In this document: in pieces, positions 3,378 through 52,680 of the stretch
How the letters are laid out: the number at the start of each line of letters is the position of its first letter
Numbering within the stretch: position 1 is the stretch's first letter
Origin: Mesostigma viride
Taxonomy: Eukaryota > Streptophyta > Mesostigmatophyceae > Mesostigmatales > Mesostigmataceae
Direction: 5' to 3'
DNA: 64,000 bases
Assembly (NCBI GenBank): GCA_009746045.1
Contig: RPFO01000080.1
Span: forward strand, 9,394,113-9,458,112
Translations under genes and position numbers: made by a program
The notes under the pieces: model-generated
Told to the model about the DNA's origin: nothing
The model's database searches: none
The model's input: only the letters and a program-made list of their open reading frames with translations

Positions 3378-6300
3378 ATGTCTAGGACCTCGCAGGCTGT
3401 TTTTTGCACCGTCCCTGGCCTTGGTTTAGCTACGCTCCCTCGAAACGCAGAAAACAAGAATGCAGTTTCTCGCTCGCCCGTCCAATGGCAGTTGACGGGA
3501 CGTTCCCAACCACTACAGTTCATACTTGAAAGTGGGTCAGCGATGCTAGAAACCGCTCTGAAATCTGTATCAGAATGGCAAGAATCACACGGAAGAGCTT
3601 GTGCGACGTCGACACCGCTGTTCGTGCTAGCATCCCTTACTGCTCGTCACACAGCTGACCTCGCTGCGATACAATTCCGGCAGGAGCAGAAAACAGGCCT
3701 TTCTTTTCCCGAACAAATCTGTCGACGAGATGATTTCGATTGCTTGGATTTGAAAGGTATGTCTGGGCAAAAAAATTCTTTTGTACTTACATGGTTCCCA
3801 TCTACTACTAGTATCACCGTCCTTCGCCCGGCCCTGCTCTTTTCCGCCCCGCCCCCCCCCGCCCACGGATACATGTTGGCCCTTTATTTTTAGTGTGCCT
3901 TTAGATGTTCCAACTGCAGACCAAAAATATCGGCTGGCGAGAGTGACCAGCTGGGGTAACCCGTGCATACTCAGCGTTGAATTTATTAAGCGAGGGTTGG
4001 CGCAATCTTACGTCATCACAGTGCTGCACTGCATACAATCTCGGCTCTACACCCTCAGGATTAGCCCCATTCTGCCCCCCCCACCCCACCCCACTTGGCT
4101 TGTCAGCCTGGTATTAAGCTTGTTACGGCACCCACTCGCCCCTTTGCTTGTCAGCCCGACCATCGTTTTTCTGGCAGCATCGCTGTGACACCAGCGCCTT
4201 CTTGCGTTAGTCTCTTACTATCAATAGTTCAATCGGATTGATTTTGCATTGTGATCTTTTATATTTAAATAGGATTCGTGAGATGCAATATGTGAAGGGC
4301 ACGGCACCATAGTTTCTGGTGCCTGATACGCATCACGTTGGAGTTATAACAATAGGCACTTCTCTGGCAATATTTCGACGACATGCACGGCCGTGAGGCG
4401 CTGCGCTGCCTGCGCATGCGGTATTCTTCTTTCCATCCCCTTTCAATTCTTTTCCTAGTAATTTGTTTCTGTTCGAGATCTTCTGGTGTTCTTACATCTT
4501 CGGCATGGCTCAGTAGAGTTCTGTAGAAGGATAGAACGTAAATTAATTTGTTGCATAGCTGGCACATAATGCTTCGCTTATGGACTGATCATGACTTTTT
4601 TTTCTTTTGCGTCTACGCTACATAAAAATATGGCCATATTTTGGTAGAATACACCAGACTATACTGATACAACACACTCCATAATCATCTTCATGTCGAT
4701 GTTGACCCGCTCCCTCACCGCCTTAAGCCTCTAAACACCCTCTTCATGGGTGTTCAACAGGACTGTTACTTGGCTTTCCAGTATGGCCAACTTGCCCCTG
4801 AAATCAGTGCTCTTTTATGCCTACCCAGCGCCCCCTCTGCTCGGGCGCTGCTGGCACAGAGGAACAGAGTACTAACGATCTGTAGACTATGGTGATGTGA
4901 CGAGTATACAAGTTTGATACTGAGTACTTGCGACCCGCAGACTATCTTGATATCGAAGAGACAACCAGCGCAGGCCAGAAATCGGGAGAATCCGGACCAT
5001 GCTCGAGCCTGCTGTTATCTTATCCACGTTTGTGAGTCGTTCAGGATGATGGAAACGAATGGAGGTGGCTATGTGTAGCCGTGGACATTAAAATATATGG
5101 CTGGCTAACGCTCATCGAGACCTAGACGGTTTAGCTAAAAACAACCTCACGTGATTAGGGCAGGTGCTGATATGATGATGCAAATTTGATACCGGGTACT
5201 TACGATCTGTATACAGTTCCTATTGGCATACTATTACCATCCATGTACTATGCTAGTACTTACGATCTGTATACGGTTCCTATTGGTATACTATTACCAT
5301 CCGTGTACTATGCTAGTACTATCGTATTTCTGGTCTCTCCCTTGACCCCTTCTTCTGGCATCCTCGACCCCTGCTTATCTACTGGCATCCTCGACTCCTG
5401 CTTGTTGCTGTCGTCTGGCCCCAGGTCTCGGCGTGCGCTCCAAGCGCATCGTGGTCAAGGACCTCAAGGTGGGAAGCTGGGTTGGCTTTTTATTCGATCT
5501 CACGACTGCCTCCTTGCCATCTTACTGTTGCATCCCTTTCTATCTTATTGTCGCACTCGTTTTCTATCTCATGGCACTCTGTTCTCTCTTAATTTCGTCA
5601 GTTATGCATAATTGCTTTCTGCTCTGTAGCTATCTATCTATGGCTGTCGCCCTGTCAACAGGACTACCCCACCCCACCCCCCTCGGCCAGCAGCGACAGC
5701 TCTGATCTAGTGTTCTTGAAATAAGCAGTAGGAACGGGTTCCCCCGGGACAGGCATGGCAGCAAACCTGCGCCAACTTCACGGCGTTCCTCGGCGACTAC
5801 ATGGACACCCATCCAAGGTCCACTTCACCATCCCACGTGCAACCACCCTTCCTCTCATTAAACATGGCCTCCCTCTCTGTTTGTTCACTCCCTGCAACCT
5901 GCTGCCATTGACATGTTTATGTGGTCAACTTGTACCTCGACACCCAGGCGGTGTTAGACCTCTCGTTCCACTGGTGACGTGTGCATGCCTGGAACGTCTG
6001 GTCTGCTCCGCTGCTGTGGCGTGCCAGGTCTACGCGGTCGGCTTCTACGTCGACACCCAGGCGGTGTTGAACCGGCTGGGCCCCAAGTACCGGGGGGTGG
6101 CGCAGGACGGGATTAAGGAGAGCTCCTTCCTAGCGGCGGCGCTGGTGGCGGATGCAGGAATCGCCAAGGGGATACGTCTGGTGGGTCAACGACAGTGGTG
6201 GTGCTGTACCGGGGCGTGGCAAGGGTTGGGCGTACGGCTGGTGGGTCAACGACAGTGGTGGTGCTGTACCGGGGCGTGGCAAGGGTTGGGCGTACGGCTG

Positions 6301-9300
6301 GTGGGTCAACGACAGTGGTGGTGCTGTAACGGGGCATGGCAAGGGTTGGGCGTACGGCTGGTGGGTCAACGACAGTGGTGGTGCTGTACCGGGGCATGGC
6401 AAGGGTTGGGCGTACGGCTGGTGGGTCAACGACAGTGGTGGTGCTGTAACGGGGCATGGCAAGGGTTGGGCGTACGGCTGGTGGGTCAACGACAGTGGTG
6501 GTGCTGTACCGGGGCATGGCAAGGGTTGGGCGTACGGCTGGTGGGTCGACGACAGTTCTGGTGCTGTACCGGGGCATGGCAAGGGTTGGGCGTACGGCTG
6601 GTGGGTCAACGACAGTGGTGGTGCTGTACCGGGGCATGGCAAGGGTTGGGCGTACGGCTGGTGGGTCAACGACAGTGGTGGTGCTGTACCGGGGCATGGC
6701 AAGGGTTGGGCGTACGGCTGGTGGGTCAACGACAGTGGTGGTGCTGTAACGGGGCATGGCAAGGGTTGGGCGTACGGCTGGTGGGTCAACGACAGTGGTG
6801 GTGCTGTACCGGGGCATGGCAAGGGTTGGGCGTACGGCTGGTGGGTCGACGACAGTGGTGGTGCTGTACCGGGGCATGGCAAGGGTTGGGTGTACGGCTG
6901 GTGGGTCGACGACAGTGGTGGTGCTGTACCGGGGCATGGCAAGGGTTGGGCGTACGGCTGGTGGGTCGACGACAGTGGTGGTGCTGTACCGGGGCATGGC
7001 AAGGGTTGGGCGTACGGCTGGTGGGTCAACGACAGTGGTGGTGCTGTACCGGGGCATGGCAAGGGTTGGGCGTACGGCTGGTGGGTTTGATTTTTAAAAG
7101 ACGGGATTCAACCTTTTTACTAGGGGTTGCCATGAAAAAAATGGGAATTTGACCTTTTTTACAGGGGCTGCCATGAAAAAAATGGGAATTTAACCTTTTT
7201 GACAGGGGCTGCCATGAACAGCCGTCGCATCCTCGCATCAAAGCGCGCTTGCAAGCGGTGGGCATGGCAAGGGGTGGGCATGGTAAGTGCTGGGCATGTC
7301 AAGGGCATCCAGCTGGTAGGTGCGAGGCTGGGCGAGGTCGACCCACACGTTTTTGCTGGGGTGAACTTGGAGCCTTGTGAAGTGCGAAGAGGGGAGGGGT
7401 TTGTTTGAGGTCTATCCCTTGGTCCTAACAGCCACAGGGGCCCTAGTGCGGTCATGCGCGGAGTCACTGCGCGACGCAGAATCAAGGTATCAGTCGCGGC
7501 AAGTATCCGTGCCTCTCCATGCAATAGCGCACCACTATTATAACTATTATAACGGCTGCGCAGGTGCGTCCAGTATTCGTGCGATATCGCTCCCTGTCAT
7601 AGCATACCACGGCACCCTTAACAGTTCCCTTTTTTTCCAGCGTCAGTCTCGCCTTTTGGCTCATGCTTCCCTACACGACACACTTCACTGTACATGGCCA
7701 TGTCTCGCCTTTTGGCCCATGCTTACCTTCACTACTTGTACATGGCTACGCCTCGCAGGTGATGTGTCGCAACGTGAGCCCCTCTATGATTGGCGGCTCC
7801 CTGTCCAAGAAGATGGCGCAGTACATGGATGGGGTGAGTGTAGCCGCCCTGATGGTTTGTGCTGGCATTCTCCACCCGCGCAGTATGTGGTTGGGCTGGT
7901 ACATGGACGCGGTGTTTGTGGGTGGTAGCCGCATTGATGGTTTTGGATTGTTTTGCACTGGCATTTTCCACCTGCGCAGTACGTGGGAATGGTTTGCGGG
8001 GTTCAATGGGTTTGGTGCGTGCCTAGGGTCTGTGCATCCACGGTGCACCGCGTGCAGATGGTGGGCAGTACATGGACTCCTCCCTCGGTGGGTGTGGACG
8101 TCTTGATACTTTTTACCGGCACATTCCTCCAGCCCATGTGCGCAGTGTACGTAAACAGTTGCCAAATGGTGCATGGAGTTTGGTCCGGTCCGCCCGTCGA
8201 TGGCGCCATAGCACTGCGTGGCTAGGGGCCCCACAACATTTTCACAATCCAACACCCTTTGGGTTGCCTTGTGAAGCCGTAGGGTCCGGTCCTATTTGGT
8301 GCGTAGTGAAGCCGTAGGATCCAGTCCTATTTGGTGCGTAGTGAAGCCGTAGGATCCAGTCCTATTTGGTGCGTAGTGAAGCCGTAGGATCCAGTCCTAT
8401 TTGGTGCGTAGTGAAGCCATAGGATCCAGTCCTATTTGGTGCGTAGTGAAGCCGTAGGATCCAGTCCTATTTGGTGCGTAGTGAAGCCGTAGGATCCAGT
8501 CCTATTTGGTGCGTAGTGAAGCCATAGGATCCAGTCCTATTTGGTGCGTAGTGAAGCCGTAGGGTCCAGTTCCTATTTGGTGCGTAGTGAAGCCGTAGGA
8601 TCCAGTCCTATTTGGTGCGTAGTGAAGCCGTAGGATCCAGTCCTATTTGGTGCGTAGTGAAGCCGTAGGATCCAGTCCTATTTGGTGCGTAGTGAAGCCG
8701 TAGGATCCAGTCCTATTTGGTGCGTAGTGAAGCCGTAGGATCCAGTCCTATTTGGTGCGTAGTGAAGCCGTAGGGTCCAGTTCCTATTTGGTGCGTAGTG
8801 AAGCCGTAGGATCCAGTCCTATTTGGTGCGTAGTGAAGCCATAGGATCCAGTCCTATTTGGTGCCCAGTTAATTCCTAATAGCTCCAGTCCTATTTGGCT
8901 CAATTCCTATCTGTTGCTGTGTCACGTGCAGATTGCTGCCCCCCTAGTCACCCTCACAAAGGGTAACGACCATCTACCTCCCACGTACCCCTATCAAACA
9001 TGTTTTTTACTCCTACGGTTGACCCATGACATGCAGAGCCCTTCATCACTTGCCGCGCTCGCAAAGTTCAACTCCTACTTCAAGCCGGGCTCCGTGGACC
9101 TGAGCAAGGGGACGGCGGTGACGTTTGCGTGGACAAGGGAAGGGGTGCTGACGACCACGATCGGCCAAAAGGAGGTGAGGGAACCCTGGGCACCCAATGC
9201 CTGTTCGTCTGTGTGTCTAGAGTTGTTGGGTAGCGAGGCGTGACACCTGTCGGCCGAAAAGTGATGACCTTGTTACGAAGCGGTCAGGACACGGTGCTCA

Positions 9301-19489: not shown

Positions 19490-20505
19490 TTTTCAGGCAC
19501 CGGCTGTGCCGCTCCGCCGCTCCGCCGCTCCGCCGCCCGCCGGCTGCGCCGCCGGCCCGCCGCGCGCCGGCTGCCCCGCCCCGTAGCCCGTCGACAGGCT
19601 GCCCCGCCCCGCCGCATGCCAGCTGCGCCGGCCCGCCGCCCACGCGCGCCGGCAGCGCCGTTGGCCCCCCGCGCGCCGACGGCCCTGCCCCGCCGCCCGT
19701 TGACAGCCCCGCCCCGCCGCATGCCAGCTGCGCCGGCCCGCCGCCCATGCGCGCCGGCAGCGCCGCTGGCCCCCCGCGCGCCGACGGCCCTGCCCCGCCG
19801 CCCGTCGACTGCCCCGCCCCGCCGCCCGTCGACAGCCCTGCCCCGCCGCATGCAGGCTGCGCCGCCGCTGCCACCTCGCTGCGCGCTGGCTGCGCCACCT
19901 CGCCGCCCGCCGACGGCGCCGCCCCGCCGCGCACCGGCTGCCCCGCCCCGCCGCCTGTCGACTGCCCCGCCCCGCCGCATGCCAGCTGCGCCGGCCCGCC
20001 GCCCACGCGCGCCGGCAGCGCCGCTGGCCCCCCGCGCGCTGACGGCCCTGCCCCGCCGCCCGTCGACTGCCCCGCCCCGCCGCCCGTCGACAGCCCCGAC
20101 CCACCGCATGCCAGGTGCGCCGGCCCGCCGCCCGCGCGCGCCGGCAGCGCCGCTGGCCCCCCGCGCGCCGACGGCCCTGCCCCGCCGCCCGTCGACAGCC
20201 CTGCCCCGACGCCCGTCGACAGCCCCGCCCCGCCGCATGCCAGCTGCGCCGGCCCGCTGCCCACGCGCGCCGGCAGCGCCGCTGGCCCTGCCCCGCCGCC
20301 CGTCGACTGCCCCGCCCCGCCGCCCGTCGACAGCCCTGCCCCGCCGCATGCCAGGTGCGCCGGCCCGCCGCCCGCGCGCACCGGCAGCGCCGCTGGCCCC
20401 CCGCGCGCCGACGGCCCTGCCCCGCCGCCCGTCGACAGCCCCGCCCCGCCGCATGCCAGCTGCGCCGGCCGGCCGCCCATGCGCGCCATGCGCTTCGCAG
20501 GTCCA
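19490..20505. repeat. GC-rich minisatellite (GCCGGCCCGCCGCC / GTCGACAGCCCCGCC words)
   Basis: About 1 kb of nested repeats is built from CCGCATGCCAGCTGCGCCGG, CGCGCGCCGACGGCCCTGCC and CCGCCCGTCGACAGCCC blocks in higher-order units of about 90-130 bases. All reading frames here are low-complexity Ala/Pro/Arg/Gly and I treat them as repeat translation. The array lies directly 5' of the unknown protein gene on the minus strand. Confidence 0.85.
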
Positions 20506-35756: not shown

Positions 35757-36010
35757 TATATATATATGCGGGCCTCGCCCAGGTCCTTCGAGTGCCAGTA
35801 GGGGTTAAGCGAACGAACCCATGCCAGGCCGATGCAGATGTCCACATCGTCGGCTGTGTTGGGGAGCATGCTCCCCACCAGTTTGAAGCGATCACGGAAC
35901 CGGACCTCTGTCCCATCTAGCAGCCGTGGCTTCGGCGGGGAACTGGTCGCCCCAATCACCATCGCCTCCGTTTTGACACTAATCTCCAACCCCACCGCCC
36001 GCGCCTGAAG
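35757..36010 (-). pseudogene. LINE-A fragment (RT C-terminal side)
   Basis: The minus strand reads VGLEISVKTEAMVIGATSSP, then LLDGTEVRFRDRFKL and SMLPNTADDVDICIGLAW, continuous in frame. It is interrupted by the (TA)n junction of C8. Confidence 0.75.
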
Positions 36011-39044: not shown

Positions 39045-39733
39045 ATGGCAACAACCAGTTTGCACGCCTGCCCCGCCCCACCCGTGCATGCTGTGAAATG
39101 CTCCACACCTGGGAGGGTACATAAACCCTCCGTGGGGCCCCTGGCACCCTGCCGAGGCCTTGGGGCTGTCAACCGCGCCGTCCTGTGGCCGCTTCAGAAG
39201 CAAGGTACGCCTAATTGTACCCAGGGCGATTTTATTAGTGACCAGGAACAGGATACTTGCACAAGAGGAGCGGGCACCACAAATTCTAATACACTGTTTT
39301 AATAATAATGCTAATAATACGCTGTAATGCTCCTGTAGCGGTAGCAGTAGACTAGTTTTTACTTTTATTGCTTGATTTCTCCCTTGCTCCCCCAGCCCAC
39401 CCTTCTTCATGGCGTGACACAAAACATGTTGTGCCTAGGCACTGGTCGACGAATGCAGTTGTGTAAATCATGCCTTCAAGGACGCCTTAGCCACTCTCGG
39501 CATGCCTTAGCCCCCCAGCCGACTTGATAACATACGGGTCCTCCCCTTTTCTGCAGGGATCGTTCCCCAGAGTGGAAGTTTGAGCCGGTTGCCTGGCCAT
39601 GCCCGTGGAAGCAATCGCAAACTGGTAGAGAGCTTTTTTCCGTTTTCTACATCAGGCCGCTTTCACATATTTCGCCGCATTCTTCATCTGGCCTGCACCT
39701 GTCGCAAGCATCTGCAGTGTCCACGTCTCCCAG
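39045..39733 (+). CDS. possible upstream exons (leader-like), unrecognised
   Basis: ATG at 39,045 opens MATTSLHACPAPPVHAVKCS and reaches a donor-like CAAG|GTACGC at 39,205. A block after CTGCAG (39,557) continues in compatible phase (IVPQSGSLSRLPGHARGSNR) up to CCCAG|GTACCC at 39,734. The composition resembles an organelle leader. It could be the 5' end of the ARMT1-like gene or a separate gene; I cannot decide. Confidence 0.25.
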
Positions 39734-39999
39734 GTACCCCTCTCTACATCCACCACCGGATGGGCCGATGGGGAGGTTAGTCCCTGCCCCCGACGCCCCT
39801 TCCTACACTAGCAATGTTAGGGAGAAAGTTGATGTTCTGTAAATAAGGTTGAAAAGGCTTGGGAGGAAAATAATGGTGGAGTTATGGAGGAATTTTTTGG
39901 GAAGAAATTAATGTTCTTTAAATAATGCACATGCCAACGTGGCATGGAGATGGAGAGCACAACGACTTACACCGATCCTGCGTTTCTCCCCCCTACTTT

Positions 40000-40190
<191 letters not shown>

Positions 40191-40708
40191 ACACGCGCCC
40201 TCTCTCACTCTAAAAAAATTGAGTAATAAGGGCTTGAGGGGTATCTGGAAACCATTGTCGAGTAGGATGATTGAGTGATGATTGAGTAATACCTATTAGT
40301 GATAATGGAGTAGTGATAATGGAGTACTAATGAGTAGTATGCATTATAATATGTCTGTCTGTGTGCGCGCCTTTCCCTCGCACCGTTGATTTCCTCCCCA
40401 TCCTCCCTTTCTCCCTCCCTCTCTCCCCACCTCCCCGTCTCTCCCGCCTTTTCCGTCCCTCTTCCCCCTGCCTTCCAGCGCCCGCTCTGCTTGGGCAAGC
40501 CATCCTTTCATCCCTTTGTCCAAGTCCTGGGATGATAACGCCAAAAAAAACTGTTGCAGTTCTCTAATTTTACAACAAGTCTATTTTATTGGAAGCAATC
40601 ATATGAGCGTACAGGATGTTTCTAATGGCCAGAAGTTTGTCTGGTCACTCCTGTCGCCCCTCTGCGTCACGGCTTGCTTGTCGCTCCTCTCCTTAACGGC
40701 TTGCACTT

Positions 40709-43700
40709 ATGCCTCCATCAATAAGCGCTTGCTTCCCCGGAACCTTTCGCTCATCGCCAGTTCCATCCTGTGGGTCCTCCATGGCCTGCCCTTTGACCCA
40801 CACCCAACCCCCGACTTCAGGTGAGCACCAAAACGCGCATGTCCGCGCCCTGCAAGCGCGGCGCACAGTGACAGCGTCGGCCAACCCGCCCGGGCTATCG
40901 GTGGTCACCCCTATCGGAGACCTCGCGTCCAAGGGCAAGTGGGCGCACGAGTCGCAGCTGCCGCCGAAACTGCTTTCGGATAAGCCAGGCACGTGGGCGC
41001 ATGACACGATGAGCCGCCGCATTCGAGAGGACATCCTCGTGCGCATCTACAACGAGAACAGCGACTATCTGGAGGCACACCCAAAGGTAATTGCACTAGA
41101 GTGTTCTTTGATACAGCGCACCTACATACTACTGTATCGGACTATACATAGTGTATACTACATACGACTATGCACCTATATGCCCTACATATACACCTAT
41201 ATACCCCTATATATACACCTGGTTGTTGCAGGAGTATGCTACTATCATGTTGTGTGTATAGGAGAGAATATCCTTGCTCGCGTCTGCAGTGAGAACAGCG
41301 ACTACTTGAATGCGCGCTCCATGGTATCAATGATAGAGATCATCGCATGAGGTTCATGATGTAATTTGCCTTCTACTAGAATGCACACCCAAAGGCACCA
41401 ATGATAGGGAGTCGCATACTTTGTATACTACCAGCAATCTAATCTGCCGTCTATGTACAAATGATTTCTCAAATAAACCATCATTGTGAGTATTACAAGT
41501 TGTTTTCTAAAGTTGAGGTTGCTGGTTAGGAATCCTTTTCCACTGTCATCTTCCGCAACCGCCCAGCTGCACAGGCCAAGGAGGAGCTGGGACCGGAATT
41601 CCTTGCACCCATAGGGGGATGCCCCAGCATCTCCCCCCCCCCTAGTTGAAGTTTTTCTGTGCACGCGAATACCATTACAAGCCCAGGAAGCTGGATGTTC
41701 TACACCGATTCCCCATCTTCTTGCTATGATACTGGAACTACTACAACAGTGCACTGCAAGTGTGTTCCGTGCGCACTACCGCCGGCGTGTACTGGCCGAG
41801 GAAGGGCTGGATGCCTTGAATCGATGCCCCACTCTCCGCATTATAATAGTAGTATCATATGGTAGTATATCATGTCATAGTAGTATCATATAGTATATCA
41901 TATAACAGTTTATCATAAAATAGTATATCCTATAGCAGTTTATCATATCGTTGCAGTATCACATAGCAGTATCCATGAGACCACAATCAATGGAGTATAT
42001 TCCTGTCCGCTACATTCCTGGTGCCCCGTGTGCGCAGGCCAAGAATGAGCTGGATGCCTTGAACGACTACCTCAAGCGTGCGGCGGAGGTGAAGCTGCGC
42101 GACTTGCCCCTCCACGATGACGGCGGCGTTGACTACGCCACCTGGCAGTCCCTGCTGCAGCCCCACCTGGACAAGACCTGGCTGACCGCGCCCTGGGTGG
42201 TCACCGAGTTCTATTTTTACCGCAAGCTGGCGCAGGTGAGTGATCTTTCTGTGGTGAAGCTGTAAACAATGTCCCTGACCCTAGTTGTCCTTTGTCATAT
42301 CTTCGTCAAATCCTGGTCAAATCTTAATTCATCACTTGCACCCACCCAGATATTCAAGGGCTCCTGGTGCGCATTTTTTAAACATTTCTTACTTGCCAGC
42401 TTCTTCCTTATATCCCATCTTTCTTGTCACTTGCACCCACCCAGATCTTCAGCTGGTTCTCGGGTGAGCACTACGACCCGTTTGAGGACCAGAAGCAGCT
42501 GGGCCTGATGACCGCGCTGTCGGAGATGGAGGAGCTTGCGCACCGGCTGGACAAGACGATCCGTGCGGCGCTCACCGGGCCCGTGCGCGCGGCGGAGGAC
42601 GGCTTCAAGCTGCTCTGCTATGCGGCCCTGTGGGGGAACAAGGTCGACCTGTCGCTGGTGGGTGGATGTAGGAAGGCCCCCCTCACTGCTAATGAATATG
42701 GACAGTGGTGCTCTGCTACGGGGGTGGGGGAACGAGGACGACCTGTTGCTGGTGGGTGGATGTATGCCACCTCTTCTACATTGACGTGTCGCCAGTGGGT
42801 GGCTCACCATAGACCTGTAGCTGTGGGTGGCGTCTGCATGCAGCCTGTCGCTGAGTGGTGGCCACTGTTAAATTTGTCGGTGGGTGGCTGCATGATCGGC
42901 GCCTCACTGTCGGGTGGATGCTGAACAACCGTGTTGCTGTTGGGTGACGGTTAAATTTAGAGATAGATTGCAGCGAGTCTGGCCGGTTTTGTGGCTGGTA
43001 GGGTGGTAAGAAAGGCCATTTGGTCCGAGGGGGAACAAGATCAATGGGTGGGTTGTGGTTAGATATACATGTGCTGCTGGTGCGTGGCGGCTCGTTACGT
43101 TTATGCATGTGCGCCTAGTGGCAGCTGTCGGACGGCCGCGAGAGCAGTGTACTGCCCCCACGGATTCCGCGATATTTTCGACTCTGTAGCTCACCCCATG
43201 TTTATTCTGGCAACTGTGCGGTTCCTAACACGGTGGTCGCACAGCGGCGCGCGTCGGCGTGTCTTCAGGTCCACCCCTTGCATCACCCCTTGCATCTATT
43301 CTGGCACCTACTTTCTCTGGTCACTGTGGCTATAGTGGCCGGTGTTGGACAGTAGCGAGAGCAATTCATAATTGCCAACCTCGTCCATGAATATATCCTG
43401 TTTGTGCTGTCATCTGTGGTATGAACACAGTGGCCGGTGTCGGACAGCGGCGAGAGCAACGTGTCGCGCGCGCTGGAGGCCGGACACTCCAAGCTGCTGT
43501 GGGACGACCTGGAGGTGAGAGGGGGCACACGATATGTCGGGTATTTACTATGACACTACCAGTAGAATGGCAACAATGGCGGAAAGCTGCAGTGGGGCGA
43601 CCTGGAGGTGAGGTCGTTTGGATTCGAATGACAACCTGGACGTGAGGGTGGCCGCATGTTTGTAGCACAATAGCAACAAGATAGCGACCAGCAATAACAG

Positions 43701-46700
43701 TTATGAGCTGCTATGGGACGGCCTGGAGGTGAGGGGGGTGCGTGACAAGGGGATCATGCTACGAGAGGGGGGTGCGTGACAAGGGGATCATGCTACGAGA
43801 GGGGGGTGCGTGACAAGGGGATCATGCTACGAGAGGGGGGTGCGTGACAAGGGGATCATGCTACGAGAGGGGGGTGCGTGACAAGGGGATCATGCTACGA
43901 GAGGGGGGTGCGTGACAAGGGGATCATGCTACGAGCCTCTCCCCAGGTGCCCATATTGCCCTTTCAGCAGTTGTCATGCATCCCCCCATCATTTTCTCGG
44001 TTTTCTCCTCTTCATCTTATTAATTGGCTGCCCCGTTGTCCATCCTTTGCCCCCCCTTGTTCCCTTCTTTTGCTTCCCTTTTTCCATCCTTTGGGCCCCC
44101 CTTCTTCCATCCTGTGGCACCCCCTTCTTCCCTTCCTTTTCTTCCCTTCTTCCATTTTTTTGTTTCCCCCTTCTTCCCTTCTTCCATTTTTTTGTTTCCC
44201 CCTTCTACCCTTCTTTGGCCCCCCTTCTTCCCTTCTTTGGCCCCCCCTTCTTCCCTTCTTTGGCCCCCCCTTCTTCCCTTCTTTGGCCCCCCCTTCTTCC
44301 CTTGTTTGGCCCCCCCTTCTTCCCTTCTTTGGCCCCCCCTTCTTCCCTTCTTTGGCCCCCCCTTCTTCCCTTCTTTGGCCCCCCTTCTTCCCTTCTTTGG
44401 CCCCCCTTCTTCCCTTGTTTGGCCCCCTTCTTCCCTTCTTTGGCCCCCCTTCTTCCCTTGTTTGGCCCCCCTTCTTCCCTTCTTTGGCCCCCCTTCTTCC
44501 CTTCTTTGGCCCCCCTTCTTCCCTTGTTTGGCCCCCCTTCTTCCCTTCTTTGGCCCCCCCTTCTTCCCTTCTTTGGCCCCCCTTCTTCCCTTCTTTGGCC
44601 CCCCTTCTTCCCTTCTTTGGCCCCCCTTCTTCCCTTCTTTGGCCCCCCTTCTTCCCTTGTTTGGCCCCCCCTTCTTCCCTTCTTTGGCCCCCCTTCTTCC
44701 CTTGTTTGGCCCCCCTTCTTCCCTTGTTTGGCCCCCCTTCTTCCCTTCTTTGGCCCCCCTTCTTCCCTTGTTTGGCCCCCCTTCTTCCCTTGTTTGGCCC
44801 CCCTTCTTCCCTTCTTTGGCCCCCCCTTCTTCCCTTGTTTGGCCCCCCTTCTTCCCTTCTTTGGCCCCCCTTCTTCCCTTGTTTGCCCCCCCTTCTTCCC
44901 TTGTTTGGCCCCCCTTCTTCCCTTCTTTGGCCCCCCTTCTTCCCTTGTTTGGCCCCCCCTTCTTCCCTTGTTTGGCCCCCCTTCTTCCCTTGTTTGGCTG
45001 ACTCTTGTTCCCTTCTTTGGGCCCCCTTTGTTCCCTTCTTTGGGCCCCCCTTCCTCCATGTCGTTGTTAACCTATCCCTGCCAGCTGCTGTGGAGCAAGG
45101 TCGGAGCGCCCTTGATCGAGGGCAAGGCGCCCGGTCGGCGCATGGACGTGGTGGTGGACAACGCCGGATTCGAGCTCTTCACCGACCTGTGCCTGGCCGA
45201 CTATGTGGTGGCGTCGGGGTTGGCGCAGAAGGTGGTGCTGCAGGTCAAGGGGCACCCAACGTTTGTGTCCGGTGGGTGCATTAGCGCTGATGTATGGCTA
45301 TTCCTTAATAGTTTGTCCTGTTTGTGCCGCGCTGCAGGTCAAGGGGCACCCGGCATTTGTGTCCGGCGGGCGCCCATCTCAACGTATCCCAGATAGACCC
45401 TACTGTCTTGTTCCTAAATAGGTCGTACTGTTTTTTTTCTAGATAGATGCTATTGTCCCGTTGCTAGATAGACCTAATTGTCTTATTCCTTGATAGGTCC
45501 CACTGTCTTGTTCCTAGCTATATCGTTCTTTCTTGTTCCCAGATAGATACTACATCGATCCTACTGTCTTGTTCCTAGATAGATCGTGCTGTCTTGACAT
45601 GATGTCTGTGTCCGGTAGGTGCACGTCAGCATGGGTTGTGTCCAATACTATTCTGGTCCCTAGATGACGATCTATATAGTAGTAATTTTTATAATTATAT
45701 AGTAGTAACAAAATGGGTTGTTTGTTGTGACGTGGTGGTGTTGGCTTCGGGTCATCATTCACCCAACTGCATCGTGTCTTTTTCTTCACCCACTTTCTTT
45801 ACCCAACCATCGCTTCCAAGGTGCTGTGCTTATCTGCCCACACTTGCTACCTTCCTCCCCCCTCCTCCCTCTCTCCCTCCCTCCCTCCCTCCCTCCCTCC
45901 TCCCTCCCTCCCTCCCTCCCTCCCTCCCTCCCTCCCTCCCTCCCTCCCTCCCTCCCTCCCTCCTCCCTCCCTCCCTCCCTCCCTCCCTCCCCCTCCCTCC
46001 CTCCCTCCTCCCTCCCTCCCTCCTCCCTCCCTCCCTCCCTCCCCCCCCCCCCTCCCTCCCTCCCTCCCCCCCTCCCTCCCTCCCTCCCTCCCTCCCTCCT
46101 CCCTCCTCCCTCCCTCCCTCCCTCCCTCCCTCCCTCCCTCCCTCCCTCCCTCCCTCCTCCCTCCCTCCCTCCCTCCCTCCCTCCCTCCCTCCCTCCTCCC
46201 TCCCTCCCTCCCTCCCTCCCTCCCTCCCTCCCTCCCTCCCTCCCTCCCTCCCTCCCTCCCTCCCTCCTCCCTCCCTCCCTCCCTCCCTCCCTCCCTCCCT
46301 CCCTCCCTCCCTCCCTCCCTCCCTCCCTCCCTCCCTCCCTCCCTCCCCCCCTCCTCCCTCCCTCCCTCCCTCCCTCTCTCCCTCCCTCCCTCCCTCCCTC
46401 CCTCCCTCCTCCCTCCCTCCCTCCTCCCTCCCTCCCTCCCTCCCTCCCTCCCTCCCTCCCTCCCTCCCTCCCTCCCTCCCTCCCTCCCTCCCTCCCTCCC
46501 TCCCTCCCTCCTCCCTCCCTCCCTCCCTCCCTCCCTCCCTCCCTCCATCCATCCATCCATCCATCCATCCCTCCCTCCCTTCCTTCCATCCTTCCTACCT
46601 ACCCTCCTTTTCAACTAATCCATTCATTCTATTTTTTGTAAGTTTCTTTCCAGTATTTTATGTGAGCATTAATCCCGATGTACTGTCTCTATTGTGTATA

Positions 46701-49700
46701 GTTCTCATCCCTGTTTCTGAGTGTTACCTGCAAAGTTAGCGGGAACATTGGTGCCGTGACGGAGGCAGCAGAGGCACGAAGGGATCAGCTTGCCTAAATG
46801 CTTGGGCGTCACCTGGCAAGAAACCTATTCGCCTTGTGTGCACACAATACTGTCCTGTAGTGACCACATACACACACAGGCACACACAGGCACACACAGG
46901 CACACACAGGCACACACAGGCACACACACGTGCACATCCACACGCAACATGCACACGCATGCACATATACACTTATATACATATACACACATGCGCACCC
47001 GCGCACGCGCCAGATGCTAAGGCCATTTCAACTGGAACATTCCAAACCGAAACATCAGTCTCAGAATCTCAATTCCCACTCTTCTTTCATAACCCGATTC
47101 GCCTTCTTGCTGCCTGCCTTTCTTGTGTCATGATGCCGTGCACATGCAGATGCGCTGGCCAAGGGCATGCATCAACTGGAGCATTGAAACCCTCCCACTT
47201 CACTGCTCCTCTAACCCTCCTCCTGCTTCCCACCTCTTGAATAACTTGCTTCTTTGCACACACAGACGCGCTCGCCAAGGACGTCAACTGGATGATCGAA
47301 ACACTCAGCGGGCTGGGCAAGGAATACCGGCACGTGGCGGCGGTGGCCAAGAGGTATGCCACCACTATAAGGAGGCATAGGGGTAGTGCGTGTGGCGGCG
47401 GTGGCCAAGAGGTGTGCCACCACTATAAGGAGGCATAGGGGTAGTGCGTGTGGCGGCGGTGGCCAAGAGGTTTGCCACCACTATAAGGAGGCATAGGGGT
47501 AGTGCGTGTGGCGGCGGTGGCCAAGAGGTATGCCACCACTATAAGGAGGCATAGGGGTAGTGCGTGTGGCGGCGGTGGCCAAGAGGTTTGCCACCACTAT
47601 AAGGAGGCATAGGGGTAGTGCGTGTGGCGGCGGTGGCCAAGAGGTATGCCACCACTATAAGGAGGCATAGGGGTAGTGCGTGTGGCGGCGGTGGCCAAGA
47701 GGTATGGTACTGTAATAAGAAATAGGGGCAGCGGTGGGTTCAATTATGACATACGGGTAGCGGAGGGGTTCAATTATGACGGATAGGGGTAGCCAAGAGT
47801 TACACCATGAGACATGGGAAGATGATGCAGACGATATTTGTAACTTTCGTGTAATTATTTTTCTAATGAGAGTAGCATAGTACTCCGTGTCATGCCCATG
47901 CGCATGACACGCAAGTTTTTACATGGGAAGGGGAGGAAGGGGGGTCGGACCGCTGCTAGGGGAAAGGGATGGGGGAGGGGGCGGGGGCGCGAAGGGGGGG
48001 GGGGGGAGGGGGGAGAGGTATTTCCCCCCCTAGGGTACAGCCTTCGATGGCATCTCTCTTCGATGGCGTTTCTTTCATGCATGTGGCTTTGCAGGAGAGA
48101 CTGGAATCTTACGTTCTACTATGTGGTACCTATATGGTACCTACTTTGGTACCTATTTTGGTACCTATTTTGGTACCTGTTTTGGTACATTATTTGGTAC
48201 GTACTTTGGTACCTACAGTCATTCCCGCGTTAAGTTACGATCGCCGCCAAAATCTGGGCGTCGTAACTTAACGCGGAACGTAACTTAACGCGGAACGTAA
48301 CTTAACGCGGGTAGGTAACCTTTACAGTAGAATTAGATTAGCAGCCCACCCCCTCCTCCTCTGACGGACTTCTATACGGCAATCGACAGCTCTCGTCAAG
48401 CCCGATCCAGATGCAGCATCAAAGTCGCCCGAAGTCCATTTCTCCGGCCATGTATTTACGGAAAGGTGAACGGTGAGGTTTACGCCGCCAAAATCTTGGC
48501 GTCGTAACTTAACGCGGGAACGTAACCTTAAGAATCGTAACTTAACGCAGGAATGAATGTATATGGTTCTCCATGACTATGTCTGTTATCTTGTCATTCC
48601 ATGCTCCAGGCAGGCTGGCGGGCCGGTGGGCCAGCGGGCAAATACCACATGTAGCTGCCACAATTATAACAAACCTGTTCTACCGGTATTCTAGTTATGA
48701 CAAACCTGTGCTGCGAATTTTCTAGTTGTAATGAACCCAATCTACGGATCAAAGAAACTGCGCTGTTATTTGTGGCCTACGCTCGTGCACCAAGTCTGAG
48801 CAACCTGTATACTCAACGCTGTTAAATGCCCCTTCATCTTGCCCTCTTATTTGTGGCCCACGCTCGTGCCTCAGGTGGAAGTCCTACCTCGAGACCGGCC
48901 AGTGGAAGCTGCGCCCGGACTACTTCTGGTGCCAGCCAGGGGCCTTCTGGGAGATGCCCGCCCACCTGGTGGCCGACCTGCAGAAGTCCAACCTCACCAT
49001 CGTCAAGGGTGCGTGCGGGTTAGGGGCTGGCACCACCTTGTCCATGTTCCATACTTCTTATGGTGCAAGCACCGCAAAAGGTCATCCGACCGCACCATCA
49101 TAGTTACGAGGGCGTAGTTGTTGGTGCACATAATCTATATCCCATGGGTCAACGTTTCTCATTATTAAAGCACCGCAACAAACCAGCCAACCTCACCATC
49201 ATAAATGGTGTGTGGTACTGCTGTATACTGCTGTAGACCACCTGTATACTGCTGTAGACAACATGCACGACACCTGTTTGCCTTCACCACCATCAAGGGC
49301 AATGCTGAAAACTGCCATAGCATCTAGTCGATGTTGTTTCTTGTTATGAAAGCAGTGCGAGGGAGATCCACACTCACAGCCACCACGGGTGCATGGATGA
49401 TGGGCAATGCAAGGTTACCGATGGACCCTGGTATGCATGACTTTTCTTCACCTTGTCTTATGGTATTTACTTACTTTTTTAATTAGCCATGCAGTCCCGT
49501 TGGGGAGCCGCGGAGCACTAACTCTTATGGTGATCTTATAGTAAGTACCCCAGGGATTATGCTTTTGGCTGCACTGGCTTTAGTGGCCATCACTTGAAGG
49601 CAGGCTCAGATAAACACATTTCACCAAGCATGCAAATGCCCTGCGCTTCTTATCTCGTCTCACTGACCCCGCCTCGGAGATGCTGATTATTTACACCTCC

Positions 49701-49946
49701 CGGTTGCATGCAGGCGACGCCAACTACCGCCGCCTGCTGGGTGACCGCGACTGGCCGTACGACACCCCCTTTGACGAGGTGTGCGGCTACTTCCCGTCCC
49801 CCCTGTGCGCGCTGCGGGCGCTCAAGGCGGAGCTCGCCTGCGGCATCCCCAAGGACGTGGCCGCGAGGACGGAGAAGCAGGACCCACAGTGGCTGGTGGA
49901 CGGCCAGTGGGGTGTGGTGCAGTTCACGGATAAAGGGGTTCGTTAA
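40709..49946 (+). CDS. ARMT1: ARMT1/DUF89-family damage-control phosphatase, eight exons
   Basis: Exons are 40709-41086, 42038-42235, 42445-42657, 43431-43514, 45085-45271, 47266-47353, 48875-49008 and 49714-49946. Together they give 1,515 bases (504 residues plus TAA), with every phase matching. Family landmarks in order: an N-terminal helical region, then [46 protein letters not shown] across intron 3, [14 protein letters not shown] (the metal-binding Asp-Asn pair), HPTFVSD (metal-binding Asp whose codon is split by intron 5), [19 protein letters not shown] across intron 7, and LRALKAE at the C-terminal (R/T)xxK-type motif with Thr changed to Ala. DUF89 enzymes are metal-dependent phosphatases acting on damaged phosphometabolites such as fructose-1-phosphate; ARMT1 was also reported as a carboxyl methyltransferase (known). 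The start at 40,709 is the first ATG of the open first exon; earlier exons at 39,045-39,733 are possible. Confidence 0.88.
41087..42037 (+). repeat. ARMT1 intron 1: donor and acceptor echoes
   Basis: A downstream copy of the exon 1 end lies at 41,267-41,325 (GAGAACAGCGACTACTTGAA against GAGAACAGCGACTATCTGGA), with a further GCACACCCAAAGG at 41,384. Upstream copies of the exon 2 start lie at 41,570-41,600 (CACAGGCCAAGGAGGAGCTG), about 41,679-41,703, and 41,795-41,827 (GGCTGGATGCCTTGAATCG against GAGCTGGATGCCTTGAACG). TATCATATAGTA-type repeats fill 41,840-41,970. Confidence 0.75.
42332..42372 (+). repeat. acceptor-plus-exon 3 echo in ARMT1 intron 2
   Basis: CACTTGCACCCACCCAG|ATA copies the real acceptor and exon start CACTTGCACCCACCCAG|ATC, 95 bases upstream. 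Similarity continues through TTCA..GG..TC. Confidence 0.85.
42722..43366 (+). repeat. donor and acceptor echoes in ARMT1 intron 3
   Basis: At 42,722-42,764, GGGGGAACGAGGACGACCTG + TTGCTG|GTGGGTGGATGTA copies the true exon 3 end and donor at 42,630-42,670. Upstream of exon 4, AGTGGCCGGTGTTGGACAGT + AGCGAGAGCAA at 43,334-43,364 copies 43,430-43,460. A weaker GTCGGACGGCCGCGAGAGCA sits at 43,127. Confidence 0.85.
43515..43935 (+). repeat. donor echoes and 34-bp tandem array, ARMT1 intron 4
   Basis: The exon end CTGCTGTGGGACGACCTGGAG|GTGAG is echoed at 43,586-43,613 (GCAGTGGGGCGACCTGGAGG + TGAGG) and 43,707-43,734 (CTGCTATGGGACGGCCTGGAG|GTGAG). The last echo opens six copies of a 34-bp unit GGGGGGTGCGTGACAAGGGG + ATCATGCTACGAGA. 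Confidence 0.85.
44205..45055 (+). repeat. pyrimidine minisatellite (TTCTTCCCTTCTTTGGCCCCCC)n
   Basis: About 35 copies of a 21-23-bp unit alternate CTTCTTTGG and CTTGTTTGG variants, with five to seven C per unit. The coding strand is almost all pyrimidine except GG. The array ends 30 bases before the intron 4 acceptor, so it may act as an enormous polypyrimidine tract (inference). Frames through it are spurious. Confidence 0.95.
45331..45620 (+). repeat. donor echoes and roughly 33-bp degenerate repeat, ARMT1 intron 5
   Basis: Bases 45,331-45,373 copy 45,238-45,280 almost exactly: GCTGCAGGTCAAGGGGCACC, then TTTGTGTCCGG. A third short copy TGTGTCCGGTAGGTGCA is at 45,607. Between them, TAGATAG.C.TACTGTCTTGTTCC words repeat six to eight times. 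Confidence 0.85.
45848..46580 (+). repeat. (CCCT)n tetranucleotide tract, about 730 bp
   Basis: Nearly pure CCCT with occasional phase slips, ending in (CCAT)n. The minus strand is (GGGA)n and could form G-quadruplexes. It is intronic (ARMT1 intron 5). Long Pro/Ser/Leu or Gly/Arg/Glu frames are artefacts. Confidence 0.95.
46866..46935 (+). repeat. (ACACACAGGC)n and ACAC-rich tract
   Basis: Six decamers followed by CACACATGC-rich dinucleotide sequence up to about 47,000, still inside ARMT1 intron 5. Confidence 0.9.
47019..47200 (+). repeat. two successive acceptor echoes of ARMT1 exon 6
   Basis: The exon starts CACAG|ACGCGCTCGCCAAGGACG. Echo 1 (47,142-47,195) reads GCAGATGCGCTGGCCAAGGG, then CATCAACTGGAGCATTGAAA. 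Echo 2 (47,024-47,075) reads GCGCCAGATGCTAAGGCCAT, then TTCAACTGGAACATT. The farther copy is more diverged. Confidence 0.85.
47334..47712 (+). repeat. 58-bp minisatellite built on the exon 6/intron 6 junction
   Basis: The unit contains the exon tail GTGGCGGCGGTGGCCAAGAG, then the donor GTATGCCACCACTATAAGGA. The true junction (47,353|47,354) is the first; exon-tail copies follow at 47,392, 47,450, 47,508, 47,566, 47,624 and 47,682, nearly identical. Each copy offers a potential 5' splice site in the same sequence context. Confidence 0.95.
48120..48216 (+). repeat. (TTTTGGTACCTA)n short tandem repeat
   Basis: Six or seven 15-16-bp units around GGTACCTATTTT lie in ARMT1 intron 6. Confidence 0.9.
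48220..48555. mobile_element. MITE-like element with CATTCC(C/T)GCGTTAAG ends
   Basis: The left end CATTCCCGCGTTAAGTTACG is mirrored at the right by the reverse complement of CATTCCTGCGTTAAGTTACG. Internal arms (GCCGCCAAAATCT.GGCGTCG, CGTAACTTAACGCGG) recur near both ends, with two extra tandem copies on the left. The TSD is unclear. It is a palindromic non-autonomous DNA element or fold-back repeat. Confidence 0.65.
48765..48798 (+). repeat. acceptor echo of ARMT1 exon 7
   Basis: GTTATTTGTGGCCTACGCTC + GTGCACCAAG copies the true acceptor region TTATTTGTGGCCCACGCTCG + TGCCTCAG at 48,847-48,874. Confidence 0.8.
49184..49310 (+). repeat. donor echoes in ARMT1 intron 7
   Basis: The exon end reads CCAACCTCACCATCGTCAAGG|GTGCG. 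Degenerate copies are CCAACCTCACCATCATAAAT + GGTGTG at 49,188-49,212 and CCTTCACCACCATCAAGGGC at 49,281-49,300. A hairpin-module relic lies at about 49,485-49,535. Confidence 0.7.
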
Positions 49947-50115
49947 GAGATGGTGGACGGCCAGTAGGGCGTGGTTGTGCGGTCCAGGGATGAAAGGGGT
50001 CCATTAGCTATGTTTTGTGCGGCTGACCTGATTAGGGTTTAGGGTCGGTCCAGGGATGATAGGGGTCCATTAGCTATGTTTTGTGCGGCTGACCTGATTA
50101 GGGTTTAGGGTTAGC
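49947..50115 (+). repeat. echo of the ARMT1 terminal coding end in the 3' UTR
   Basis: Immediately after TAA, TGGTGGACGGCCAGTAGGGC, GTCCAGGGATGAAAGGGGTC and CATTAG echo the last codons (TGGTGGACGGCCAGTGGGGT, TTCACGGATAAAGGGGTTCG, TTAA). A roughly 64-bp piece of this echo is then tandemly duplicated. Confidence 0.8.
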
Positions 50116-50562: not shown

Positions 50563-51417
50563 GACAGGTCCTGAACGTAGGGTTTTCCACACATAGGTCA
50601 TAAGTGCTGGTTGTCTCCTTGATAAGAGTCTTTGTATAAGGGTATGCCTCGAATTTCCGACGAGATTAAGCAGCCGCTTCAAGCTGCTCGGCAGTTGGCT
50701 TCCCGACTGCGAGGACGACCTGACGACACGGATCGGCATGGCGTGGGCGCACCTCCATGACCACCGCCGCTGGTGGAGCAACCCCGCCCTACCCCGGATC
50801 GTCAAGCGTGACCTCTTCAAGGTCGTCATTCTGATGATCCTGACCTACGGCGCCGAGACGTGGGCACTGACGCAGGAGCTGGAACAACGACTCGACGGCG
50901 CCGCCACCAAGATGCTGCGCCAGGCCCTTAACATCCCCTTTGGTTTGCACATTAGTAATGAGGATTTGTACGCTGATTTGCCCTATGTTTCCCACATTAT
51001 TAGGCACAGGCGCCTGGGCCTAGCCGGGCACCTGGCCCGCACAGATCAGGTAGATACCTCGGTAGACTAGCTGGCACCAAGCCCGCCCAGCCTGGGCGAT
51101 ATATGTCCTAACCTGGCGTGCCCCCGGCCGCGCGCGGCAGGGCCGCCACCCGTGGACATTTCGTGATAGACTCGGCATGGACATGTGCTACACTAGACGT
51201 GACGGGCTCACCCCCGGGCAGCCTCCTGGTTTGTCTGTAATATGGAGGCAGATGGTGCGCAAGGATAGATGGCAAGTAGTGCTGAAGGAGACCACCCCCA
51301 AGTCTGTGGGGGCTCCGCGTGTGACCGCGCATGGCATTCATAGCGATTCGGGCCGCGGTGCCCACACGCCTGTAACTAGGACCTAGATAGCTTATACCAT
51401 CCATTCCACCAGCGTTT
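50563..51417 (+). pseudogene. chimeric LINE-A/LINE-B fragments
   Basis: 50,563-50,675 is LINE-A-like (GTCCTGAACGTAGGGTTTTC to CCTCGAATTTCCGACGAGAT). It joins abruptly to LINE-B, which encodes HDHRRWWSNPALPRIVKRDL, MILTYGAETWALTQELEQRL, YADLPYVSHIIRHRRLGLAG and HLARTDQVDTSVD followed by TAG at 51,070, then a 3' region matching 25,590-26,000. Confidence 0.7.
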
Positions 51418-52680
51418 ATTGCTGCCATTCGCCGACTGTATGAGGGCTCACAGGCAGTAGTGCGGACTGCGGAAGGCACCACCCCACCATTCCCCCTTCA
51501 CCACGGGGTGTGGCAAGGTTGTGTCCTGTCTCCATACCTGTTCATTATTGTCGTGGACCACGTCATGCGCCAGGCACGTGCGCGCTTTACTGCTCTTAAG
51601 GGGTTCGAGCCAGGCTTGGACATCCTTAACGAGCGTGGGCACGGCGGGGTTAGCACGGGTTACCGCCTGGCTGACCTGATTTATGCGGACGACACCACCC
51701 TCATCGCGCGCCCCGAGCACATTCAGACCTGGCTGGACTGTCTGGGCCTGGAGGCGAGGGCGGTGGGGTTGGAGATAAGTGTCAAAACTGAGGCGATGGT
51801 GATTGGGGCTACCAGTCGTCCACCGCTGCCGCGCCTGCTCGACGGGACGGAGGTCCCATTCCGCGACCGCTTCAAGCTGTTGGGGAGTTGGCTTCCTGAC
51901 ACTGCCGACGATGTGGACACCCGCATCGGCCTTTCCTGGGCCAAGCTCCGTTCGCTCAACACCTACTGGCGCTCCAAGGGCCTGGACGAGCACCGCAAGC
52001 GCATGCTCTTCAAGGTCCTCGTCCTCACGGTGCTCACGTATGGCGCCGAGGCATGGACACTCACGGCAACACTGGCAGCTAAGCTAGACGGCACGGTAGC
52101 CCGGATGCTCCGACAGGTCCTGAATGTCGGGTTTTCTCAGCGTAGGTCATTAGAGTCTTTGTATCACGGTATGCCTCGTATTTCGGATGAGATTCGGCAG
52201 CGTAGGATAGCATTTGTAGGACATCTTGCTCGCACCAGCCAGGTCGACACCGCCCTTGGTCTGGCCGGTCCCCAGCGGCTCGGCCAACCAGGGCGGCATA
52301 TTTTGACCTGGCCTGGCCCCAAGAACATTCCTAAAAGGGTAGGGAAACATGCCATGACCTATACCCAGATGTTGCTGGACGACCTAGTGGTCCCAGCCCA
52401 GTTTGAGTACCGCATCCACTCTCTCTCCCGTCTTTGGACTGCCATGCAGGACAAGACGCGGTGGAAGAAGATTGTCAAGGCGCACACGCCAGCCCCTGTG
52501 GGCAAGCCGCCTCCCCCCAAGAGGAGGAGCCGTTCTGATTAGTAGCGTAGATAGGCTTTTCTAGACTAGATATAGCTTAGCGTTAGGTTAGTTCGATTAC
52601 GCGGCTTCCTCCACACCACCCATCCAACCTGGAATATGTGCTACATGATCTCCCAACGGAGACATGTTATAATTTAATCT
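51418..52680 (+). mobile_element. LINE-A, best copy (5' truncated): RT C-terminal half and C-terminal domain
   Basis: The frame is open from AFIAAIRRLYEGSQAVVRTA at about 51,418 to TAG at 52,542. It shows HHGVWQGCVLSPYLFIIVVD (RT motif), ADLIYADDTTLIARPEHIQT with the catalytic YADD, FRDRFKLLGSWLPDTADDVD, LTYGAEAWTLTATLAAKLDG, MPRISDEIRQRRIAFVGHLA and a Lys/Pro-rich C-terminus (PVGKPPPPKRRSRSD). RT fingers and any endonuclease are missing. The 3' UTR ends in the TCCCAACGGAG hairpin word and an AT tail. About 375 intact codons suggest a recent insertion. Confidence 0.8.

Follow-up and report, generated by a model that had tools for sequence, protein, structure and literature searches.

The 64,000-nucleotide stretch analyzed here (hereafter, the window) comes from the nuclear genome of the streptophyte alga Mesostigma viride (assembly GCA_009746045.1, contig RPFO01000080.1, positions 9,394,113 to 9,458,112 of the forward strand). 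It carries two genes, ARMT1 and a chalcone-isomerase-like gene (CHI), in whose introns additional, imperfect copies of the adjoining exon-intron borders, here called echoes, were found. A single assembly of 439.9 Mb in 2,243 contigs was analyzed; excerpts of the published genome report give a size of 441.8 Mb and an average intron length of 1,142 bases (PMC6947507).

The spliced translation of ARMT1 contained the Pfam ARMT1-like domain, and its best database match was the M. viride gene model P0001 (jgi/Mesvir1), with 98% identity at 65% query coverage. Mapping of this model to the window by tblastn, followed by reading of the splice sites, revealed an extra first exon at 39045-39204, so that the gene comprises nine exons and eight introns. 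The initial annotation of the window had started exon 1 at an ATG at 40709, whereas that exon actually begins at the acceptor 40820/40821, and it had counted seven introns, overlooking the one at 39205-40820. ARMT1 introns are numbered 1 to 8 below; intron n of the initial annotation is n + 1 here. The second gene, CHI, was 100% identical to model P0121 over the 179-residue query.

Border echoes in Mesostigma introns are real. Each border was locally aligned to its own intron, with dinucleotide shuffles of that intron as the control. In its own numbering, the initial annotation had reported exon-end and donor echoes in ARMT1 introns 1, 3, 4, 5, 6, and 7 (not 2) and acceptor echoes in introns 1, 2, 3, 5, and 6 (not 4 or 7), and both the positive and the negative calls were reproduced. 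For each listed echo, none of 200 shuffles matched the score. Every one of its seven introns was thus confirmed to hold a copy of its own donor or acceptor border. The overlooked intron 1 contained no clear echo, with 4 of 100 shuffles reaching the score at either edge. Across the 15 introns of the two genes (one CHI acceptor being set one base off in this test and corrected in the later ones), 8 donor and 5 acceptor edges scored beyond all 100 shuffles, and 9 donor and 8 acceptor edges scored above all 14 other introns. For the 13 edges that exceeded all shuffles, none of the 14 other introns scored as high. With 30-base queries taken from the exon only, all 100 shuffles were exceeded for 7 of the 15 exon ends and for 4 of the 15 exon starts. 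When 40-base tiles were used (score 26), 18 of 55 edge tiles (unmasked) were echoed, compared with 12 to 16% of intron, exon, and intergenic tiles; reversed-sequence controls in these classes gave 1 to 3%.

CHI introns 5 and 6 each contained a donor echo, and CHI intron 4 contained an acceptor echo. The proposal that CHI and a membrane-protein gene behave like ARMT1 held for CHI in part, since 3 of its 14 borders were echoed at score 26 as opposed to 11 of 16 in ARMT1. The membrane-protein gene could not be located: a codon-usage scan of the window gave no clear third gene, only coding-like stretches lacking a Pfam match, one near 17952-19224 on the negative strand and a short one near 26.1 kb. 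The suggested increase of divergence with distance from the true site was present as a weak trend (Spearman -0.42, p 0.09, 17 copies). The stop-codon end of ARMT1 is echoed as well, as originally described (46/52 bases, spacing 57); with the last 40 coding bases as the query, a score this high arose in 1 of 200 shuffles, and with 60 bases spanning the stop codon it arose in 7 of 200. The same shuffle comparison gave no echo of the two start codons or of the CHI coding end.

The copies lie close to their sources and in the same orientation. Among 1,447 tests with 40-base tiles outside repeats and transposons, matches within 250 bp were direct in 46 cases and inverted in none. At score 26, exon windows of 30 bases located at most 30 bases from a border of ARMT1 or CHI matched the adjacent intron in 29 of 169 cases, and windows farther inside the exon did so in 0 of 537; the windows overlap, both here and in the carrier genes described below, and are not independent. 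Such attachment to the border is predicted by border-crossing tandem duplication; random copying of nearby pieces does not predict it.

At two borders of the window, the copies form minisatellites. In the 58-base array of ARMT1, the inner five units are 0.98 to 1.00 identical to one another, the border unit is at ~0.8, and the last unit is at 0.86 to 0.88; in the 60-base array of CHI, the inner mean is 0.97, with 0.79 for the border unit and 0.59 for the last. Both arrays therefore consist of homogenized inner units and diverged edge units. Multicopy border arrays were found at donors only. Signs of tandem duplication were also seen at the single echoes of the ARMT1 and CHI exon 6 donors, where the stretch following the copy resembles the stretch between the copies. 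Among 17 copy pairs tested, 1 abuts, and in 3 a matching stretch lies between the copies or next to them, in one case explained by a neighboring echo. Most aligned copies are ~75 to 94% identical, that is, not young.

Five ARMT1 echoes between 42332 and 45373 are situated 93 to 98 bases from their sources (95, 94 to 98, 95, 93, and 94), and an array in a carrier gene, L038, has a period of 99. A preferred copy spacing was nonetheless rejected, the window-wide spectrum of repeat spacings having no sharp peak.

Beyond the window, genes were sampled through the mitochondrial-carrier and kinesin Pfam families. Their borders were taken from a small Pfam-guided gene finder, and only exons overlapping a Pfam match by at least 40 bases were counted. 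The 24 carrier loci came from ~40 gene clusters. Most were chosen because they had more than one match or a match split by an intron, and echoes played no part in the choice; a further 30 loci (L006-L035) contributed to codon training alone, and proteasome matches were excluded. The finder is rough. Run without evidence at penalty 16, the setting behind the echo counts below, it recovered 8/8 acceptors and 7/8 donors of ARMT1 and 5/7 acceptors and 4/7 donors of CHI, and since its splice-site and codon tables were partly trained on these two genes, the recovery is no independent check. Several predicted borders are probably misplaced, e.g., in L060, L064, and L068.

The 24 carrier genes contributed 105 borders, of which 25 (12/45 donors and 13/60 acceptors) were echoed in their own intron, 17 of them with at least 12 exon bases. 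Nonmatching introns gave 51 matches in 3,150 comparisons (1.6%), near the shuffle level of 11 in 1,050 (1.0%). The comparison with shuffled and nonmatching introns, proposed along with the initial annotation, thus favored the echoes: foreign introns did not score as high as the borders' own, and the copies did not behave as a dispersed repeat family. With few exceptions, carrier copies abut the border (score 26): exon windows matched in 44 of 630 cases at up to 30 bases, in 1 of 1,036 at 30 to 79 bases, and in 6 of 3,169 beyond, where the reversed control gave 4. The sole array at a supported border in a tandem-repeat scan of these loci was the one in L038, with 3.3 copies of 99 bases over a donor. 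Among 11 kinesin genes, 15 of 57 borders were echoed, 10 with at least 12 exon bases, and a 63/63-base copy with a spacing of 70 lies over a donor of L068. Counting complexity-filtered borders, 17 of the 35 sampled genes had at least one echo, or 19 of 37 with ARMT1 and CHI included.

By eye, the kinesin genes L064 (~751-882) and L068 (1577-1710), located on different contigs, carry a similar tandem copy at an exon end that appears to correspond in the two, which would fit a border duplication older than the gene duplication or two separate events. Kinesin matches with identical scores and layout on contigs C2 and C622 mark a duplicated stretch, perhaps an unmerged haplotype.

The coordinates of exons and echoes in the window are collected in Table 1. 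Five of the 29 rows of the underlying echo alignment table could not be used, the query having overlapped with the sequence being searched, and these echoes rest on other comparisons.

Table 1. Exons and border echoes of ARMT1 and CHI (window positions)
Feature	Position	Strand	Basis
ARMT1 exon 1 (overlooked initially)	39045..39204	+	tblastn of P0001, splice sites read
ARMT1 exon 2	40821..41086	+	tblastn of P0001, splice sites read
Exon 2 end + donor echo	41262..41338	+	alignment: 44/62 exon bases, 12/13 intron bases
Second echo of exon 2 end + adjoining intron; GT lost	41373..41450	+	alignment
Acceptor + exon 3 start echo	41561..41590	+	alignment
Second echo of acceptor + exon 3 start	41759..41831	+	alignment, shuffle test
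ARMT1 exon 3	42038..42235	+	border analysis, P0001 mapping
Acceptor + exon 4 start echo	42332..42355	+	alignment, shuffle test
ARMT1 exon 4	42445..42657	+	border analysis, P0001 mapping
Exon 4 end + donor echo; weaker copies on to ~42946	42709..42764	+	alignment, shuffle test
Acceptor + exon 5 start echo, more diverged	43117..43169	+	alignment
Acceptor + exon 5 start echo	43334..43364	+	alignment, shuffle test
ARMT1 exon 5	43431..43514	+	border analysis, P0001 mapping
Exon 5 end + donor, three echoes (43584-43612, 43630-43652, 43706-43738)	43584..43738	+	alignment, shuffle test
ARMT1 exon 6	45085..45271	+	border analysis, P0001 mapping
Exon 6 end + donor echo; following stretch matches too, resembling a tandem unit	45331..45373	+	alignment
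Exon 6 end + donor, short second echo	45604..45623	+	alignment
Acceptor (47149/47150) + exon 7 start echo; last exon of P0001, stop codon 47185-47187	47139..47187	+	
ARMT1 exon 7	47266..47353	+	open spliced frame with GT-AG; spanned by Pfam ARMT1-like domain
58-base minisatellite, seven units; unit 1 = 38 exon + 20 intron bases over exon 7 donor	47316..47721	+	
Exon 8 acceptor region echo, intron part	48759..48788	+	shuffle test
ARMT1 exon 8	48875..49008	+	spliced frame, Pfam domain
Exon 8 end + donor echo; weaker one at 49284-49299	49187..49214	+	alignment, shuffle test
ARMT1 exon 9 including stop codon	49714..49946	+	spliced frame, Pfam domain
Coding end + stop codon tandem echo, 3' region	49951..50006	+	alignment
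CHI exon 5 start echo in CHI intron 4	5915..5959	+	alignment, shuffle test
CHI exon 5	6028..6180	+	gene model mapping, splice sites read
60-base minisatellite, ~15 units; unit 1 over CHI exon 5 donor 6180/6181	6155..7086	+	
CHI exon 6	7759..7833	+	gene model mapping, splice sites read
CHI exon 6 end, donor + following intron echoes	7899..8107	+	alignment, shuffle test

The ARMT1 introns also hold very long simple arrays at 45850-46607 and 44198-45057 (a 4-base unit repeated ~194 times and a 22-base unit repeated ~38 times, respectively). Elsewhere in the window, a 425-residue open frame at 17946-19223 on the negative strand has partly coding-like codon use (near 17952-19224) and no Pfam match, and a GC-rich array at 19507-20487, whose periods are close to 24 and 105 bases, can be read through in several frames of either strand. 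Reverse-transcriptase frames (Pfam RVT_1) at 33894-35804 (negative strand) and 51391-52542 (positive strand) are parts of retroelements; similar frames recur, by eye, at 27 to 36 kb and 53 to 55 kb.

Many echoes retain splice signals. GT is preserved at the aligned position in 10 of 14 donor echoes, and 11 have it within 4 bases; measured against 61 known or predicted donors, 7 of the 14 reach at least the 40th percentile. By a loose criterion, AG is found within 6 bases in 6 of 7 acceptor echoes. The CHI gene model takes the outer borders and, with the exception of one echo acceptor, so does that of ARMT1. This acceptor, 47149/47150, ranks at the 51st percentile among 76 acceptors. Because P0001 takes it, the model is truncated and lacks exons 7 to 9: its C-terminal 12 residues are the echo translated as an exon up to the stop codon at 47185-47187. 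The true exon 7 reads differently from this end, and the two further exons after it hold the domain's conserved end. No separate gene model for the lost 3' exons appeared among 116 matches, none of which was named Mesvir or was more than 63% identical. The choice made in P0001 could reflect RNA-based use of the echo acceptor or an error of prediction. Our own gene finder at low stringency also calls echoes as exons, e.g., at 42737-42751, 43593-43607, 47150-47164, and 49187-49207. Annotators should be aware that echoes can mislead gene models, as illustrated by the public Mesostigma ARMT1, which stops early at an echo acceptor.

To sum up, the copies are direct, close to their sources, and specific to their own intron, and in most cases they are attached to the border; some form tandem arrays, and many unrelated genes contain them. 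We consider it probable that they are "mirages," i.e., the products of short, local tandem duplications that by chance take in an exon-intron border. A tandem duplication spanning the border would place the new copy within the intron and leave the outermost border in use. The mRNA then need not change, so that selection would tolerate the event, whereas a duplication confined to a coding exon would change the protein and would not persist. The copy would subsequently decay as neutral intron DNA or be amplified to a minisatellite by unequal exchange or slippage. Over time, repeated rounds would lengthen introns and leave decoy splice sites. We infer the molecular step (slippage or unequal exchange), the role of selection as a filter, and the neutrality of the copies.

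Several observations weigh against mirages as the explanation. The excess of direct matches is confined to short range: the counts of direct and inverted matches were 6 and 5 at 250 to 500 bp, 9 and 2 at 0.5 to 1 kb, 10 and 10 at 1 to 2 kb, 0 and 6 at 2 to 4 kb, 4 and 3 at 4 to 8 kb, and 26 and 12 at 8 to 16 kb. In 13 of the 17 copy pairs, no duplicated stretch is clearly recognizable between or beside the copies, and the tandem origin of these pairs is deduced from position. Kinesin exon windows also match away from the predicted border: 24 of 342 did so at up to 30 bases, 24 of 570 between 30 and 79 bases, and 10 of 1,417 beyond (reversed controls, 0, 4, and 4, respectively). Some of the off-border matches can be put down to long echoes, to low-complexity sequence, or to borders that were probably misplaced. 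Finally, with low-complexity points kept, carrier borders did not exceed interiors, at 23.8% versus 22.9% for score 26 and 8.6% versus 17.4% for score 40, because low-complexity interior points often match themselves nearby.

How strongly borders are favored was assessed against control points with a trinucleotide entropy of 4.6 or more, a filter that removes simple repeats. Intron-interior points were echoed too, at 28% in the two window genes and 9.1% in the 35 sampled genes. In the latter, 32 of 136 borders (23.5%) were echoed, a border-to-interior ratio of 2.57 (95% interval, 1.48 to 3.92); for all 37 genes, the ratio was 1.66 (0.98 to 3.12). In the carrier genes alone, the gene-level difference was not significant (10 up, 14 down, p 0.42). 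Taken singly, the ARMT1 borders, 11 of 16, compare with 22% of interior points, and the CHI borders, 3 of 14, compare with 34%. Local copies were found for 28% of points in window-gene introns and 8% in intergenic DNA, or 39% and 23% with simple repeats kept. Simulated undirected tandem duplication, filtered by exon integrity, gave ratios of 0.9 to 1.4 while ongoing and of 1.7 to 3.5 when it had ended 0.15 to 0.2 substitutions per site ago. The ratio rises after such a quiet period because the copy of a conserved exon faces an unchanged original, whereas both intron copies drift. Those quiet-period simulations that came close to the observed interior level fell short at the borders, the closest giving 16.5% versus 9.5%. 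The ARMT1 count exceeded all matched simulations of ongoing duplication (0/201 and 0/140 reached it); ARMT1 had been picked by the initial annotation for being striking. A first simulation with 40-base tiles placed borders below interiors, the opposite of the real tiles. Given the quiet-period simulations, the border excess needs no border-directed process, although such a process is possible.

Duplication raised at borders by, for example, transcription, R-loops, or cotranscriptional splicing intermediates would account for the 2.57-fold excess in the sampled genes, for the shortfall of the quiet-period simulations near the interior level, for an ARMT1 count above all 201 + 140 simulations, and for the richness of window-gene introns in local copies. 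We nevertheless regard a border-directed process as rather unlikely, since undirected duplication followed by a quiet period reaches ratios of 1.7 to 3.5 and the divergence of most copies indicates that they are not young; moreover, CHI shows no excess, the carrier genes alone show no significant difference, and the interval for all 37 genes extends down to 0.98. The recurrent process envisaged in the initial annotation is therefore retained in part. Repeated border-crossing tandem duplication acting on existing introns, lengthening them and supplying decoys, agrees with the near direct copies, the arrays, and the echo acceptor in P0001. The data do not show that it aims at exon borders: interiors are echoed, undirected duplication with a quiet period gives ratios of this size, and the stop-codon end of ARMT1, which is not a splice border, is echoed as well.

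Templated insertion during break repair, in which short nearby pieces are copied into a break with no tandem duplication, would fit the copy pairs lacking a clearly recognizable intervening duplicate and the frequent ending of alignments within ~13 bases of the donor. It is an improbable source of the echoes, given that no inverted copies occurred within 250 bp and that clean tandem arrays lie over borders. Pieces of exon interiors would be expected equally often, yet ARMT1, CHI, and the carrier genes have almost none; the picture is less clear for the kinesin genes. Introner-like elements are common in some algae, but no observation was found to favor a dispersed repeat or an introner-like element carrying splice sites as the source of the echoes. 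With borders matching other introns at 1.6%, close to the 1.0% of shuffles, and the 13 ARMT1 and CHI edges unmatched by the 14 other introns, such an element is very improbable and was rejected at this sensitivity (51/3,150 versus 11/1,050). The chance of a mere likeness between degenerate splice motifs is smaller still and practically negligible. Donor and acceptor motifs and pyrimidine tracts are indeed similar across introns, and 8 of the 25 carrier echoes have fewer than 12 aligned exon bases, but own introns matched in 24% of cases as opposed to 1 to 2% for shuffles and nonmatching introns, and 30-base queries of exon only match too. Chance similarity was rejected on these grounds.

Mirages have been described in amphioxus. 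Excerpts of the reports present them as minisatellite-like tandem duplications of exon-intron boundaries in the Adh3, globin, troponin C, and PGBD5 genes, occurring at both borders, with units of 10 to 160 bases, AG and GT often kept, concerted evolution, length instability, and splicing reportedly undisturbed (PMC3087553, PMC3902484). As far as these excerpts go, the Mesostigma copies are similar in being border-spanning tandem repeats at 5' and 3' borders with many GT and AG dinucleotides kept, in their unit sizes (58, 60, and 99 bases), in the combination of homogenized inner units with a diverged edge unit, and, as in amphioxus PGBD5, in the imperfection of the copies. They share the features by which mirages are recognized in sequence. 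They differ in that the host is a streptophyte alga, in that most copies are single and diverged, in their presence in 19 of the 37 genes examined, and in that one echo acceptor has been adopted by a public gene model, whereas regular splicing is reported as undisturbed in amphioxus.

A single border-crossing duplication is already known in a plant: according to portions of a report on potato, a duplication crossing an intron-exon boundary created a new intron (PMC4974935). In both potato and Mesostigma, splice signals are duplicated in tandem, but the potato event yielded a new intron, whereas the Mesostigma copy is absorbed into an existing one. Portions of a Drosophila study similarly describe novel intron positions arising through tandem duplication (PMC2891723); duplicated splice-site sequence becomes intronic in both organisms, but in Drosophila the duplications lie within coding exons and create introns.

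The likeness to intron gain from duplicated AGGT, drawn in the initial annotation, is limited in the same way. No duplicated exonic AGGT giving rise to a new intron was encountered, and the copies sit in existing introns, as that annotation itself had said. A study linking internal gene duplications with intron evolution reportedly concerns the creation and multiplication of introns, not border copies left within an intron. No report of mirages in any plant or alga was found in limited searches of the open-access literature on Mesostigma, border minisatellites, and algal intron expansion.

That border-biased duplication coupled to transcription or splicing is a main engine of long Mesostigma introns, with the spliceosome using some echo sites, seems unlikely to us; if true, border copies would form a standing reservoir from which new intron positions and truncated or altered isoforms could arise. 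Border duplications have so far been described gene by gene, chiefly in amphioxus, in the portions of the literature cited here. With echoes in 19 of 37 genes, counts can be used to test questions of intron growth: whether local duplication is a way in which introns lengthen, whether the placement of copies is due to selection by itself, and how frequently duplicated splice sites are put to use. Border copies could thus help to explain how introns grow and how they acquire decoy splice sites.

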